Source of the DNA: Limisphaerales bacterium
GTDB taxonomy: Bacteria; Verrucomicrobiota; Verrucomicrobiia; Limisphaerales; SXTU01
Length of the DNA: 52,644 nucleotides
Direction: 5' to 3'
Assembly: GCA_009773355.1 (NCBI GenBank)
Contig: WRPG01000036.1
Location: forward strand, 1 to 52,644
Part shown: positions 9,605 to 23,489 of the stretch, piece by piece
Layout of the letters: every line of letters starts with the position of its first letter
Position numbering within the stretch: the first letter of the stretch is position 1
Translations under genes and position numbers: made by a program
The notes under the pieces: model-generated
Databases searched by the model: none
What the model saw: the letters and a program-made list of their open reading frames with translations, nothing else
What the model was told of the DNA's origin: nothing

Positions 9605-9671
9605 GGAGCGCAGGTGTCCAACCTGCGCGATGCGGCGGCCTTTCAACGCGCCGGTTGGACACCTGCGCTCC
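9605..9671. repeat. Inverted-repeat element, GGAGCGCAGGTGTCC family
   Basis: Arm 9605-9623 (GGAGCGCAGGTGTCCAACC) and arm 9653-9671 are exact 19-nt reverse complements, with a 29-nt spacer. The right arm ends seven bases before the ATG of the MbnP-MbnH fusion, so its hairpin could affect translation start. The same family occurs at 17947-18013, and a variant lies inside the following gene at 10298-10364. Confidence 0.88.
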
Positions 9672-9678
9672 GTGACGT

Positions 9679-11820
9679 ATGAAGCCGCCGGGACTCACCA
9701 CCAACCAGCGCATCGCCCGCGCTTGGGCGTTGCTCGCGGTGCTGGGGCTGCTGCTCTGGCTCACGCAGCACGCGCGCGGCGCGGAGTCGGAGGTGACGGT
9801 GTCCATCGCGCCGCGCTTCCGGGGCGAGCCGCTGGTGTTTGACCAGCTTCGTTGCACCAACACTGCCGGGCAGGCGCTGACCGTGACGCGTCTGGACATG
9901 TTGCTCTCCGGCGTCGCGGTGCGGCGCGCGAACGGCTCGTGGCTGGAGAAGCACCACTGGTATGCCTTCATCAGCGCACGCGAGGGCCGGACGAACTTCG
10001 TGCTGCGCGGCCTGCCGGCGGGCGACTACGACCGGCTGCGCTTCAACATCGGCGTGCCAACGGAGCAGAACCACGCCAGCCCCGCGCAGTGGGACGCGGC
10101 GCATCCGCTGAACCCGCAGGTCAACGGGCTGCACTGGAACTGGCAGGGCGGCTACGTCTTCCTCGCATTGGAGGGCAAGTGGGCATTGCCACCACGTTTC
10201 GCGGGCGAGCGCGAGGGCTTCGGTGGCGAGCGGGTCAATCCGTTAAGCACCGGTCTGGCGGAGACGGGGTTGAGCCATCCCTCGCCCGCCCTCGGCGGGA
10301 GCGCCGGTGTCCAACCGGCGGGGACGGGCACGCCGCCGAATCGCCGGTTGGACACCGGCGCTCCGCAGGCGGGTTTTTCCTGGCACCTCGCGACGGACCG
10401 GCAACTGATGACTGTGGACGTGCCGGTGACGCTCGCTGTCAGCTCCGCACCGGCTACGGTGCGGCTGGACTTCGACCTCGCCACGGTGTTTGGCGAACTC
10501 ACGCTGGACCGCGACACGCTCTCCACGCACTCGCGCGAGGGCGATGAGCTGGCGGACTGGCTGCGCGGCAACGTGGAGCGGGCCTTCGCGGTGAGCCGTG
10601 CCGGCGGTTTGCAACCGCCGCTGGTAGGGCGGGGTGTCCCCGCCGCGCCGCCGAACGACAGTGGCTCGCGGGTGGCCGGCGGCGGGGTGGGGACACCCCG
10701 CCCTACCAACATCATCGGCACGCCGTATCGCTTCACCTACGCGGCGCATTTCCCCAAGCCCGCATTGCCGCTGGACAATCCGCTGACGGTGGAAGGCGTC
10801 GAGCTGGGGCGGCGGCTTTTCAACGACCCGCTGCTCTCGCGCGGCGAGAAGCAGTCGTGCGCGTCGTGCCATCAGATGGACGGCGGCACGGTGGATGCGG
10901 GCAAGGCGTTCAGCCTCGGCGTGGACGGCCTGGAGGGGAAGCGCAACGCGATGCCGCTCTACAACCTCGCGTGGAAGTCCGAGTTCTTCTGGGATGGCCG
11001 CGCGAAGTCGCTGCGCCAGCAGGCGCTCATGCCGATTCAGGACGAACTGGAGATGCACGAGACGTTGCCGAACGTGGTGGCGAAGTTGAAGGCAGCATCG
11101 GCAAAGACCCCGCCCCGTAGCAGCCGACGTGAGGAGGCTCCAACTTCCCAATCGGCAATCGGCAACCGGCAATCAGCAATCAATCAGAGCCTCCTCACGT
11201 CGGCTGATACCAGTTACGGGGAGATGTTCGCCCGCACCTTTGGCACGCCGGAAATCACGGCGGAACGGGTTGGTCTGGCGCTGGAGCAGTTCCTCATCAC
11301 GGTGACTTCCTTCGATTCAAAGTTCGACCGAGTGCTACGCGGGGAGGCGAAGTTCACCGTGGAGGAACAGCGTGGCTTTGAGCTGTTCCACACCGAGTTC
11401 GACCCGCGCCGCGGCCAGTTCGGCGCGGACTGTTTTCACTGCCACGGCGGGCCGCTGTTCCAGAACGTCGCCTTCGCCAACAACGGCCTCGACCGCGAGC
11501 CGAAGGACTTGGGTCGCTTCCTCGTGACTGGCCGCGACGGCGACAAGGGCAAGTTCTCCGTGCCTTCGCTGCGCAACGTGGAACTCACTGCGCCTTACAT
11601 GCACGACGGCCGGCATCGCACGCTGGAGGAGGCCGTCTTCCACTACGTGCGCAACGTGCAGCGCAGTGACACGCTCGACCCAAACCTCGCCAAGCACCCG
11701 CCCGGCGGCGTGCGCATTCCGCCGCAGGATCTGCACGCGCTCGTGGCGTTCCTGAAAACCCTCACCGACGAGTCGCTGCGGCCTGCGACCCGCCGCGCCG
11801 CCAGCGCGCCATCGCCATGA
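9679..11820 (+). CDS. MbnP-MbnH fusion: copper-type beta protein joined to diheme peroxidase
   Basis: 713 residues from ATG 9679. After an N-terminal membrane/signal segment (about 13-35), residues about 37-290 match the MbnP-like family: LDMLLSGVAV, a GVPTEQNHASP motif, then GLHWNWQGGYVFLALEGKW. Residues about 350-705 are a MauG/MbnH-type diheme cytochrome c peroxidase with CASCH (Cys about 394) and CFHCH (Cys about 585), plus PYMHDGRHRTLEEAVFHYV. In characterised pairs, MbnH oxidises a Trp of MbnP to create a copper site; here both partners are one polypeptide. Three palindromic elements (10298-10364, 10623-10707, 11121-11206) are read through in frame at about residues 207-229, 315-343 and 482-510. 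It sits between two YHYH genes. Families are clear; the effect of the insertions is unknown. Confidence 0.85.
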   Translation: MKPPGLTTNQRIARAWALLAVLGLLLWLTQHARGAESEVTVSIAPRFRGEPLVFDQLRCTNTAGQALTVTRLDMLLSGVAVRRANGSWLEKHHWYAFISAREGRTNFVLRGLPAGDYDRLRFNIGVPTEQNHASPAQWDAAHPLNPQVNGLHWNWQGGYVFLALEGKWALPPRFAGEREGFGGERVNPLSTGLAETGLSHPSPALGGSAGVQPAGTGTPPNRRLDTGAPQAGFSWHLATDRQLMTVDVPVTLAVSSAPATVRLDFDLATVFGELTLDRDTLSTHSREGDELADWLRGNVERAFAVSRAGGLQPPLVGRGVPAAPPNDSGSRVAGGGVGTPRPTNIIGTPYRFTYAAHFPKPALPLDNPLTVEGVELGRRLFNDPLLSRGEKQSCASCHQMDGGTVDAGKAFSLGVDGLEGKRNAMPLYNLAWKSEFFWDGRAKSLRQQALMPIQDELEMHETLPNVVAKLKAASAKTPPRSSRREEAPTSQSAIGNRQSAINQSLLTSADTSYGEMFARTFGTPEITAERVGLALEQFLITVTSFDSKFDRVLRGEAKFTVEEQRGFELFHTEFDPRRGQFGADCFHCHGGPLFQNVAFANNGLDREPKDLGRFLVTGRDGDKGKFSVPSLRNVELTAPYMHDGRHRTLEEAVFHYVRNVQRSDTLDPNLAKHPPGGVRIPPQDLHALVAFLKTLTDESLRPATRRAASAPSP
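10298..10364. repeat. Inverted-repeat element inside CDS (A)
   Basis: Arms 10298-10320 and 10342-10364 are exact 23-nt reverse complements (GGAGCGCCGGTGTCCAACCG...). The element lies within the MbnP-like half of the fusion gene and is translated without a stop as a Gly/Pro/Thr-rich loop. Confidence 0.92.
10623..10707. repeat. Inverted-repeat element inside CDS (B)
   Basis: Arms 10623-10641 and 10689-10707 are exact 19-nt reverse complements (GGTAGGGCGGGGTGTCCCC). It is a different sequence family from element A and lies in the linker between the MbnP-like and peroxidase halves; the frame stays open. Confidence 0.92.
11121..11206. repeat. Inverted-repeat element inside CDS (C)
   Basis: Arms 11121-11140 and 11187-11206 are exact 20-nt reverse complements (CAGCCGACGTGAGGAGGCTC), with an outer CCCCGTA/TACGGGG pair. 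The spacer is a simple array of CGGCAATC/CAGCAATC units. It lies between the two heme motifs of the peroxidase half and is read through in frame. Confidence 0.92.
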
Positions 11821-11955
11821 GCGTCGCACTTCACTTTGCCCGTGTGGGCGAACGGCGGGCGGACCGGAGGCAGTCGTGTGCCCGGTCCGTCCGCCGCGAA
11901 TTCTTGGAAGCGACTTTCGCTTCCGTCGTCCAGTAATCAGCCAGCCAGCACTCGC

Positions 11956-12960
11956 ATGAACCATCGCACCTTCACCCGCCAGACCGTGACGCTCCTCGCG
12001 GTGGTTTCCCTCACCGCCCTGGTTCGCGCGCAAAACCGCCCGGCGGAACCCAAAGGCCCCGGCGGGCGCGGTGGCGAGCAGAAGGGCAAGCAATACGCCG
12101 CGCCGGCGGGTGATGGAAAAAATCCCGCGCCCAGCCAGGTGAGCATTGCGATCGAGGGTGGCTTCCGGGTCATCAAGGCAAACGGCCTGCCGGACCACGC
12201 GCCAGGGCAGTTCCCGAATCGCGGCAACCCGAACGTCGTCGCGGCGCAGAACTACACATACCGCGTGCCGGTGCGGCCGCAGGCCAACGCGCAGTTCACG
12301 CGGCTTGCCATGCACCCGTTCGGCGTCGCGCTCAACGGCGTGGTGTTCGACCCCGGCGCGGCGGAGTGGTGGCAGATGGACCCGCGCTCCGGCTGGACGC
12401 TCGACCCCATCAGCGGCTCGCAGAAGCTCGGGATTGACCGGCACAACGCGCACGTCCAGCCGACCGGCGCGTATCACTACCACGGGATGCCGACGGGGCT
12501 GGTGGAGAAGCTGACCGGCGGCAAGGAGAAGGTCGCGCAAGTCGGCTGGGCGGCGGATGGGTTTCCGATTTACGGCCCGTGGGATTACAGCGACGCGAAG
12601 AGCACGAACAGCGCGGTGAAGCGGATGAAGTCGAGCTACCGGCTGCGCGAGGGCACGCGGGCGAGCGGGCCGGGCGGGAAGTTCGACGGCAGCTACGTGG
12701 AGGACTTCCAGTTCGTCGCGGGGGCGGGCGACTTGGACGAGGCCAACGGGCGTTTCGGCGTGACGCCGGAGTTTCCGCAGGGCACATATCACTACGTGTT
12801 GACGGACGATTTCCCGTTCATCCCGCGCCAGTTCAAAGGCACGCCGGACAGCAGCTTTTTCCGGCACGGCCCCGGTCCGATGCGTTTTGGTGCGGGCGAT
12901 GTGAACTTCAAGGGCGGGCCGGGCGGCAAGGGACCGCCGGGCAAGGGGCGTCCGTTCTAA
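11956..12960 (+). CDS. Secreted YHYH-domain protein
   Basis: 334 residues from ATG 11956; upstream in-frame codons exist, but this start gives the signal peptide MNHRTFTRQTVTLLAVVSLT followed by ALVRAQ. The mature protein opens with a Gly/Pro-rich linker, then a YHYH domain: FGVALNGVVFDPGAAEWW, HNAHVQPTGAYHYHGMPTGL, GWAADGFPIYGPWDYSDA and EANGRFGVTPEFPQGTYHYV. It is the compact, single-domain relative of the 997-residue protein upstream. It lies 135 bp after the MbnP-MbnH fusion and 14 bp before the FHA gene, so it could be the last gene of the YHYH/MbnPH unit or link the two groups. Function unknown; extracytoplasmic. Confidence 0.87.
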   Translation: MNHRTFTRQTVTLLAVVSLTALVRAQNRPAEPKGPGGRGGEQKGKQYAAPAGDGKNPAPSQVSIAIEGGFRVIKANGLPDHAPGQFPNRGNPNVVAAQNYTYRVPVRPQANAQFTRLAMHPFGVALNGVVFDPGAAEWWQMDPRSGWTLDPISGSQKLGIDRHNAHVQPTGAYHYHGMPTGLVEKLTGGKEKVAQVGWAADGFPIYGPWDYSDAKSTNSAVKRMKSSYRLREGTRASGPGGKFDGSYVEDFQFVAGAGDLDEANGRFGVTPEFPQGTYHYVLTDDFPFIPRQFKGTPDSSFFRHGPGPMRFGAGDVNFKGGPGGKGPPGKGRPF

Positions 12961-17946: not shown

Positions 17947-18013
17947 GGAGCGCAGGTGTCCAACCTGCGCGTTCCAACGCGACATCCTTGCGCAGGCTGG
18001 ACACCTGCGCTCC
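17947..18013. repeat. Inverted-repeat element between convergent genes
   Basis: Arms 17947-17970 (GGAGCGCAGGTGTCCAACCT...) and 17990-18013 are 24-nt reverse complements with one mismatch. Same family as 9605-9671. It fills nearly the whole gap between the ends of two convergent genes, so it could act as a bidirectional transcription stop, although there is no T-run. Confidence 0.9.
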
Positions 18014-20585: not shown

Positions 20586-22745
20586 ATGAAGACATTTCAA
20601 CCACCCCTGGCCGGGACAACGCGGGAGGAGCGCGGCCTTCAGGCCGCAGCGCGTGGAGATTCAATCGGGTGCCGCGAAACGCCCCGCAATCATGCCGGAC
20701 GTTTCTGCGGCCTGAAGGCCGCGCTCCTGCTCGCGCTCGCGCTGTCGCTGCTTCCGCACGCGTCGGCGCAGACGGTCGCGACCAACAAGGTGGCCGAGCC
20801 GAAGAAAGCTGCCGAGGCCGACCCCAACGAGGAGCCGGTCAACTGGATTACCGTCGGTGTCGGCGGCGTGTCCACGAGCGGCAACCGCGCACAATTTCAG
20901 GAGCGTTGGGGCCGGAAGCAGGGTGTGCTCGGTGGGTTGCAGGACTTCCACTACGAGTTGATGTTCGGGCAAAAGGGAATGTTGGAGCTGGATGGCCAGG
21001 CCATGTATGGCGGGGAGGATTACTCGGTGAAACTCCAGGTGGTGGACCCCGACCGGGGCTTTTTCCGGGCCGGGTTTCGCCAGTTCAAGACCTGGTATGA
21101 CGGCAGCGCCGGATATGTCCCGGCCACCGGCGGATTCATCTCGCTGGGCAGCGACGAGTTGAGCCTCCGGCGCGGTGAAATCTGGGTCGAGGGCGGGCTG
21201 ACCCCGCCGGACGGCCCGATGTTGACGCTGAAGCTGTCCCGCGAATATCGCAAAGGCACGAAGGACTCGATCATCTGGGGTGATTCGACCCAGGGCGGCG
21301 TGACGCGCGGGATGGTGCCCAGCTTCCGGGAGATCAATGAGATCAGGAACCGCGTGCTGGCGGACTTGCGGCACACCGTTGGCCGGTCGGACTTTGGCAT
21401 CGGCTTCCGGCTCGACATGGCGGACACCGACAACAAATTCAAGGAGCGGCGGACCCCCGAAGCCGCGGGTGTGGGCAACCGGTTCGTCACCCAGCGCGAC
21501 GTGTTCGAGTCGGACATGTTCAATGTCCGCGCGTTCACGGAGACGCGGTTCAATGACCGGACCCTGTTGACCAGCGGCTACTCCTACACGCGGCTGGACA
21601 CGGACATCGGCGGGAGCCGGATTTATGGGGCGAGCTTCGATGCGCCCTACTCGCCGGCTTACGTGGACAGCGGCTACACCAGCCTCTCCGGCGGCTCGAT
21701 TGTGGATCAGTATGTGATGAACCTGTCGCTGCGCTGGGAGCCGTTTGCGGATTTCGTGGTCGTTCCGTCCCTGCGCGCGGAGAAGATTGATACCGGCGAC
21801 AGTTCGCAATACTCCGTCGCGAACGTGCCCACGGGCATCACCTCGGTGCAGAGCGGCTTCCTGACCGTTTCCGAGGCGCTGGAGGCGCGGTTCACCGGCT
21901 TCACCAACTGGGTGCTCTACGCCCGGGGTGAATGGTCGGAAGGGGACGGTTACCTGCGCGAGCAGAGCACGCCGGTCATTCTGAGAAACACGGACTCCGA
22001 GCGCTTCACGCAGAAATACACCGTCGGGGCCAACTGGTATCCGCTGCGGCGGCTGCACTTCTCGGGGCAGTATTACCACAAGACGGTGGACAACGATTAC
22101 ACGCACCTGACGGACTCGACGGCCAACACACTTGTGGCCGGCAACCGCTACCCGGCCTTCCTCCGCGAGCACAGCTTCCAGACCGATGACCTGAATCTGC
22201 GGGCCACCTGGCGTCCGCTGCCGAACGTCACGTCGGTGACGCGCTACGACTATCAGGTCTCCACCATCAACACGCGCGGCGACAACCTGGGCAATGTTGA
22301 AAGCGGGAAGACCACCGCGCACATCGTCAGCCAGAATCTCACCTGGGCTCCGTGGTCACGGCTCCTGATGCAAGGCAGCTTCAGCTACGCGCTGGACAGC
22401 ACGACCACGCCCGCCAGCTCGATCACAGGGACTGTCACCGACGCGCGCAACGACTACTGGCAGGCGACCGCAACGGTGACTTTCATCGTGGATGACAAGA
22501 CTGACCTGCTGGCGAACTACTTCTATTACCGCGCCAACAACTTCATCAACAATTCCAGCGTCAGCATGCCCTACGGCACCAGCGCCAACGATCACACGGT
22601 CAGCATCGGACTCACCCGCAACTTCAGCAAAACCGTCCGTGGCTCGCTGAACTACGGCTACTTCCGCCACCGCGATGAAACCTCCGGCGGATTCGACAAC
22701 TACGACGCGCATCTCGTCTTCTCCACCATCACCTACCGCTTCTGA
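20586..22745 (+). CDS. MtrB/PioB-like outer-membrane beta-barrel
   Basis: 719 residues from ATG 20586. A normal signal core (LLLALALSLLPHASA, about residues 47-61) is preceded by about 40 residues, most encoded by a palindromic element. The mature protein begins WITVGVGGVSTSGNRAQF and then alternates amphipathic strands (RAGFRQFKTWYDGSAGYVPA, SGYSYTRLDTDIGGSRIYG, LNYGYFRHRDETSGGFDNYD), ending in TYRF with a terminal Phe as expected for BAM-inserted barrels. Length and pattern fit the decaheme-associated MtrB/PioB family. No N-terminal CxxC motif like that of MtrB lies in the mature part. Cytochrome genes flank it on both sides; it would form the sheath of an outer-membrane electron conduit. 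Confidence 0.87.
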   Translation: MKTFQPPLAGTTREERGLQAAARGDSIGCRETPRNHAGRFCGLKAALLLALALSLLPHASAQTVATNKVAEPKKAAEADPNEEPVNWITVGVGGVSTSGNRAQFQERWGRKQGVLGGLQDFHYELMFGQKGMLELDGQAMYGGEDYSVKLQVVDPDRGFFRAGFRQFKTWYDGSAGYVPATGGFISLGSDELSLRRGEIWVEGGLTPPDGPMLTLKLSREYRKGTKDSIIWGDSTQGGVTRGMVPSFREINEIRNRVLADLRHTVGRSDFGIGFRLDMADTDNKFKERRTPEAAGVGNRFVTQRDVFESDMFNVRAFTETRFNDRTLLTSGYSYTRLDTDIGGSRIYGASFDAPYSPAYVDSGYTSLSGGSIVDQYVMNLSLRWEPFADFVVVPSLRAEKIDTGDSSQYSVANVPTGITSVQSGFLTVSEALEARFTGFTNWVLYARGEWSEGDGYLREQSTPVILRNTDSERFTQKYTVGANWYPLRRLHFSGQYYHKTVDNDYTHLTDSTANTLVAGNRYPAFLREHSFQTDDLNLRATWRPLPNVTSVTRYDYQVSTINTRGDNLGNVESGKTTAHIVSQNLTWAPWSRLLMQGSFSYALDSTTTPASSITGTVTDARNDYWQATATVTFIVDDKTDLLANYFYYRANNFINNSSVSMPYGTSANDHTVSIGLTRNFSKTVRGSLNYGYFRHRDETSGGFDNYDAHLVFSTITYRF
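20627..20727. repeat. Inverted-repeat element in signal-peptide coding region
   Basis: Arms 20627-20649 (GGAGCGCGGCCTTCAGGCCG...) and 20705-20727 are exact 23-nt reverse complements, with a 55-nt spacer. The whole element is translated between the start codon and the hydrophobic signal core of the MtrB-like protein; its right arm encodes part of the core entry (CGLKAALLL). Confidence 0.92.
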
Positions 22746-23103: not shown

Positions 23104-23489
23104 TGCGCGCGGCGCGAAGCAGCACGCCGGCGACTCTCTCTGACCATGAAAACCGGTGGATTCAACAGTGGCTGCCGGAAGTTCGCCTTCTCCCTTCGCG
23201 CAGCGAGGGGAGAAGGTGGCCGAAGGCCGGATGAGGGGAGCGGCCACTTGCGCCGACGCACGCAACCCCTCACCCCAGCCCTCTCCGTCAAGCGGAGCGC
23301 GGGACTCCGGCCCGCAGCGGCCACCTTCATCCAAGTGCACTGCGGAAACTCGCACGCCGCTCTGCGCAAGCTGCCGCTGCGGCCCGGAGGGCCGCGCTCC
23401 AGTTCAGGGGCTGAAATCGGGCCGTGGAACCTCTCCCCTTGCTCCGCAAAGGGAGAGGGAGAAGAAGCGTTCTTCGACCCTTCCAGCAG
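23104..23489. repeat. Non-coding gap filled by nested inverted repeats
   Basis: No convincing gene. An outer pair of the type CTTCTCCCTTCGCGCAGCGA (about 23188-23225) and GCTCCGCAAAGGGAGAGGGA (about 23443-23465) surrounds an inner pair: arm 23294-23318 (GGAGCGCGGGACTCCGGCCC...) and arm 23376-23400, its reverse complement with three mismatches. This looks like one element inserted into another. It separates the monoheme and pentaheme genes within the electron-transfer group. A weak open frame from 23146 consists mostly of element sequence. Confidence 0.75.

Follow-up and report, generated by a model that had tools for sequence, protein, structure and literature searches.

The window, that is the whole stretch of 52,644 nucleotides that was analysed (contig WRPG01000036.1 of a Limisphaerales bacterium from a lake), contains at 9679-11820 on the + strand a gene for a protein of 713 amino acids. 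The protein has a signal helix, an MbnP domain (PF20243) and a di-haem CCP/MauG (MbnH-like) domain (PF03150) that is nearest to MbnH-type enzymes, and it is matched in part by NCBIfam TIGR04039. MbnP and MbnH/MauG-like domains are fused here in one polypeptide, and the gene adjoins 11836-12960, beside two YHYH-domain genes. Such fusions are widespread in Verrucomicrobiota and also occur in Bacteroidota. A sequence-only reading of this DNA had reported three inverted repeats of different families within this one coding sequence, and all three were found again in place: a single open reading frame of 713 amino acids, starting with the ATG at 9679, reads through them with no stop or frameshift.

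Element A (10298-10364, 67 nt) corresponds to residues 207-229 (GSAGVQPAGTGTPPNRRLDTGAP) and has fully paired arms (10298-10320/10342-10364, 23/23 nt). Element B (10624-10706, 83 nt; residues 316-343) has arms of 32 nt (10622-10653/10677-10708) that are 94% paired, and element C (11117-11210, 94 nt; residues 480-511, RSSRREEAPTSQSAIGNRQSAINQSLLTSADT) has arms of 24 nt (11117-11140/11187-11210, 96%) around a heptamer-periodic spacer. The peptide stretches read from the inserts are GSAGVQPAGTGTPPNRR, VGRGVPAAPPNDSGSR and REEAPTSQSAIGNR. Against 200 shuffles, single-strand folding gives z-scores of -9.5 for A, -7.4 for B and -7.6 for C, and the three palindromes are far beyond chance. From the outside in, each arm consists of a G(G/T)AG tag, by which the element boundaries were defined, followed by its own small hairpin, and the two arms face each other. 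The arm reads GGAG CGCCGG-TGTCCAA-CCGGCG in A, GTAG GGCGGGG-TGT-CCCCGCC in B and GTAG C AGCC-GACGTGAGGA-GGCT in C, where the tag of the 3' arm is mutated in the window copy and reads GATAC. A single unit of A folds by itself (7-bp stem, z -3.95) and the stem of a C unit is weak by itself (4 bp, z -0.15); among the copies of C there are compensatory stem variants (AGCC/GGCT, AGAC/GTCT and CGCC/GGCG). Because the arms are made of a tag plus their own hairpin and face each other, A (GGAG-tagged), B and C (both GTAG-tagged) are, on this anatomy, head-to-head REP dimers (REPINs), each of a different family. Tag plus hairpin in head-to-head dimers is the anatomy described for REPINs (PMC3733652, PMC3116915), and the elements fall in a known class, the GTAG-type REP head-to-head dimers, which the earlier reading had missed.

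Other repeats lie close by. A small palindrome, CGGCGGTT-TGC-AACCGCCG, was read from the sequence just before B (10602-10620, residues SRAGGLQPP); it is largely common to the congeners G001 and G003, and is possibly an older single REP. Ahead of element A, some 30 codons (10209-10297, residues 178-206) are also common to G001 and G003 and are absent from G005 and from other orthologues. Just upstream of the gene there is an extragenic family A dimer of 67 nt (9605-9671), and further REP dimers in the window lie at 2732-2784, 17947-18013, 20627-20727 and 23294-23400, the dimer at 20627 perhaps where an ORF of 719 aa starts.

In the AlphaFold model of the protein (mean pLDDT 77.9) there are only three internal stretches of low confidence, at residues 178-224, 308-340 and 489-506, and these fall on A (207-229), B (316-343) and C (480-511), which is partly expected for inserts without aligned homologues, since unaligned segments tend to low pLDDT. 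The inserts are predicted on this model to be disordered loops: A in a strand-strand loop of MbnP, B in the linker between the domains and C in a helix-helix loop between the two CxxCH haem motifs, which bears out the locations assigned from the sequence. When the protein is aligned with the di-haem peroxidase of Nitrosomonas, site C stands opposite two residues. The inserts would be translated and retained in the protein, as far as can be judged from the sequence.

The insertion points are confirmed by orthologues without the elements. The congeners G001, G003 and G005 have the host gene without B and without C, and at site A, G005 is empty, a decayed A with a shared spacer occupies this very position in G003, and G001 carries a shorter segment that is unrelated. 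The anchor-to-anchor distances at the three sites, in nucleotides for four versions of the gene, are 255/222/255/114, 210/189/189/162 and 237/153/153/135, and every version among the congeners stays in frame. It is worth noting that a palindrome can decay while the frame is kept, as at site A of G003 and at site C of G098.

Of 320 genomes of the order, 100 have an orthologue of the host gene; most orthologues are 590-630 aa long and have no insert, and in none of 88 that were aligned do the same segments appear as ordinary conserved protein sequence without a palindrome. The named relatives are Limisphaerales/Pedosphaera (Verrucomicrobia subdivision 3) MAGs. Site A is occupied by other dimers of GGAG type in G027 and G012, and in G189 by a REP-like palindrome; site B holds a palindrome of 156 nt in G280, one of 29 nt in G111 and a GTAG-tagged dimer of 67 nt at L215. 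At site C, the family C dimer of G027 points the other way and for that reason counts as an independent event; G098 has a decayed C of 94 nt, and G295, G276 and G120 have palindromes of 151-159 nt of another class, among others. Counting palindromes with arms of at least 16 nt in the 88 aligned orthologues, 8 of 9 are in loops A, B or C; without the window the count is 5 of 6, for loops that make up about 15% of the protein (binomial, about 4e-4). Weaker palindromes elsewhere in the gene match a codon-shuffled control (22 found, about 20 expected). In other families of the order, different palindromes struck the same three loops independently. The second class of palindrome, 151-159 nt long and of the form GGTGGCAC(A/G)GGCCTC(T/C)..., is likewise read in frame, in loops B and C of orthologues (L191 in G280, L173 in G295, L174 in G276 and L175 in G120), and has an outer tag other than GTAG.

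Elsewhere in the genome, about 100 sites match A, B or C. A family-blind detector of tag-plus-hairpin dimers found 70 in 784 kb of the genome's own DNA (42 with GGAG tags and 28 with GTAG) and none in the control, 264 kb of DNA after Markov shuffling. With family C added to the detection, 223 dimers were found in a census sample of 2.07 Mb of the 6.16 Mb genome. There are at least 8 dimer families with compensatory stem variants, and the dimer spacers fit the range of 20-100 bp given in PMC3733652. By the gene calls of a home-made codon-model caller, 55 of the 223 dimers are intragenic and in frame; in an unbiased sub-sample, picked regardless of matches, the figure is 23 of 110. Extrapolated from the latter, there are roughly 100 in-frame dimers per genome, and probably about a hundred further genes of this genome carry them. 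The hosts include ValRS, an AddA-like helicase-nuclease, AddB, a sulfatase, an ABC transporter and an aldehyde dehydrogenase, and the ValRS and AddA of relatives are without the inserted segments. The AddA-like gene (L049:10617-14684, C132) has four in-frame REP dimers, one of A and three of C, and the AddB gene next to it (L049:14845-18531, C132) has two, one of C and one of D. In the valyl-tRNA synthetase gene (L091:2212-5565, C10) two in-frame dimers were detected, and at least two more segments (about 438-507 and 548-631) are absent from relatives.

Three Y1_Tnp genes are present in the genome, two with the HUH and YIxNNP signatures of RAYTs and a third of IS200 type. The first RAYT has family A dimers on its flanks and scores 86.8 bits with NCBIfam NF047646 (cut-off 80), and the second has family D on its flanks and scores below that cut-off. 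For B and C, neither the own genome nor the surroundings of 30 Y1_Tnp loci in ten relatives yielded a RAYT with such repeats on its flanks. A nearby IS200-type transposase was considered as the mover of C and rejected; C dimers lie within about 1.5 kb of 4 of the 30 Y1_Tnp loci of relatives and never immediately flank them. The exact 24-nt arm of C is present in 107 of 293 genomes of the order, and a reversed control gave zero matches. At L070:3952-5748 (C27:163952-165748) the first RAYT and a 4-hydroxyproline epimerase are joined via a family A dimer in one ORF of 599 aa, a read-through fusion of enzyme and transposase.

It had been suggested that the lengths of the elements, or their families, are adapted to translation. 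For lengths this does not hold: the tag-to-tag lengths of 67, 83 and 94 are none of them a multiple of three, and the length modulo 3 of the copies in genes (28:17:10) is like that outside (83:49:36), with no bias to multiples of three. For families it can be compared with a filter model in which insertion is random, only frame-breaking copies are lost and the coding density is 0.83. This predicts 0.40-0.57 of the copies of the main families in genes; the observed fractions are 0.12 for both A and D, below the model, and 0.53 for C, slightly above its 0.40. Copies of A and D have more open frames than their shuffles (4.95 vs 3.68 and 3.74 vs 2.31), yet they are rare in genes. As element length is not a multiple of three and genes hold fewer copies of most families than the filter of frame and stops predicts, there is no general adaptation to translation, an idea that shuffled C elements also speak against. 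A simple filter of frame, stops and loop tolerance suffices in general, with C as the possible exception.

The explanation that we consider very probable is that REP dimers were inserted into the host gene separately, and that the survivors are tolerable in-frame insertions in disordered loops. REP dimers are small and non-autonomous and would be copied as single-stranded hairpins by RAYT (HUH/tyrosine) transposases; for B and C, mobilisation is inferred from their anatomy. A, B and C would have entered the gene on separate occasions. Insertion would be widespread, with selection removing frame shifts, stops and damage to the fold, and what is left in genes would be insertions of a net multiple of three, free of stops, in disordered surface loops. 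Because the host has three tolerant loops, these could take up different families time and again, independently in different lineages, with the palindrome later decaying and the frame kept. Survival of tolerable insertions would explain the pattern; in the census, 55 dimers are in frame and no frame-shifting dimer leaves the frame open. Most likely the extra peptide is tolerated as a spacer and has no new function.

A rival explanation is that family C at least is adapted to coding DNA as its niche, its spacer, orientation and exit phase having evolved to give a harmless peptide. With copies taken as independent, gene calls from the home-made caller and p-values computed after the pattern was seen, C is in frame in genes in 9 of 17 copies of the unbiased sample against 14 of 93 for other families (p = 0.0014), the A-rich strand is the coding strand in 30 of 31 in-frame copies where about 0.58 is expected from open frames (p = 1e-6), orientation in other same-strand copies is 9:5 against 30:1 in frame (p = 0.008), and the exit phase is 1 in 26 of 31 (p = 3e-5). 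In that phase the 3' arm reads QSLLTSAAT, though all three of its frames are open, and the constancy arises by co-variation of element length and entry phase. These biases in orientation and exit phase go beyond what stop codons alone account for. A bias of insertion orientation was also rejected as the cause of the strand bias, since the ratio of only 9:5 outside coding sequence points to selection instead. The spacer of C (in the window 11141-11186) is an array of about four heptamers, uniform within a copy and varying between copies (AATCGGC, AACGCGG, CCCAGAC, ACACGCA and others), with identities of 0.58 (lag 7) and 0.56 (lag 14), where other lags give 0.17-0.33; a literature search on heptanucleotide repeats found nothing relevant. 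Against the rival, C copies outside genes have no more open frames than shuffled sequence (2.47 vs 2.42 of 6), the in-gene fraction is near that of the filter, length modulo 3 is not enriched, G027 has C reversed at the same site, and tolerance of the peptide after insertion could produce the biases. We therefore regard adaptation of C as unlikely, and peptide-level tolerance as the likeliest cause of its strand and phase bias. The stronger idea of a family specialised for coding sequence by heptamer spacer, fixed strand and fixed exit phase, repeatedly supplying ready-made loops across the order, seems slightly more doubtful still.

The inserted peptides could instead have a selected function, for example as flexible linkers that tune the contact between MbnP and MbnH or in surface binding. 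The repeated entry into the same loops and the frame kept during palindrome decay in G003 and G098 would fit this, but most orthologues do without an insert, its sequence, family and orientation vary by lineage, the segments are predicted to be disordered and the same peptides occur in unrelated proteins, and we find such a function very improbable. Still less credence is given to palindromes kept in the gene as signals of control at the RNA level (attenuators or RNase III sites), for although the hairpins are very stable, nearly all orthologues are without them, different families occupy the same loops, and in G003 and G098 it is the palindrome that decays and the frame that is kept. That the gene is a pseudogene or an assembly artefact, in frame by chance, is hardly conceivable. 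The assembly is of metagenome type, with 162 contigs and 1.93% contamination, but similar inserts occur in orthologues from independent assemblies and in ValRS, AddA and others. The dN/dS of the host gene is 0.14 (G000 vs G001), from which purifying selection follows and by which a pseudogene was ruled out, and the haem motifs and many invariant residues are intact.

The in-frame insertions have precedents. GTAG REPs and their dimers in frame within genes have already been reported, most of them in Opitutus terrae (Verrucomicrobia), where two uvrA genes have double insertions; many in-frame inserts are in DNA-repair and tRNA-synthetase genes, and linkers and loops were argued to tolerate them (PMC3733652). 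The elements described here are like GTAG REP dimers or REPINs in having a tag and hairpin, inverted dimers and several families per genome (Di Nocera et al. 2013, PMC3733652; Bertels and Rainey 2011, PMC3116915), in RAYTs flanked by the same repeats, here seen for families A and D, and in their presence in repair and tRNA-synthetase genes, here AddA/AddB and ValRS. They are unlike them in that most families have GGAG, a variant that PMC3733652 does not name, in that three different families stand in one gene, in the heptamer-periodic spacer of C with half of its copies in genes, and in repeated independent insertions into the same loops across families of the order. In recB, different REPs were found at about the same place in Xanthomonas campestris and X. 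oryzae (PMC3733652), which is similar in that different elements use one site of one gene; here there are three loops of one gene, more lineages and several classes, including palindromes that are not REPs. The comparison that had been drawn with the Rickettsia palindromic elements (RPE) is apt, since in both cases mobile palindromes stand in frame within many functional proteins unrelated to one another (PMC3733652, PMC10969869). RPE-1 has a length of about 150 bp, however, and the REP-like RPEs are of the CGTC class and have no known transposase, whereas here the tags are G(G/T)AG, RAYTs are present and the hosts are uncultured, apparently free-living Verrucomicrobiota. The present elements work like RPE but, by their tags, fall in neither an RPE family nor the CGTC-tagged units, and they are probably unrelated to RPE in sequence.

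The kind of element is known, and what is new is the scale, the GGAG families, the presence of three families in one gene, family C and the repeated use of the same loops across the order. These genomes amount to a natural experiment on insertion tolerance, with hundreds of REP dimers of known sequence, many of them read as protein, and relatives that show the sites empty. Through its bias in strand and phase, family C lets one test directly whether selfish palindromes within genes are tolerated or adapted to translation, and with the recurrence at three loops, it becomes predictable where mobile DNA may lengthen a protein.
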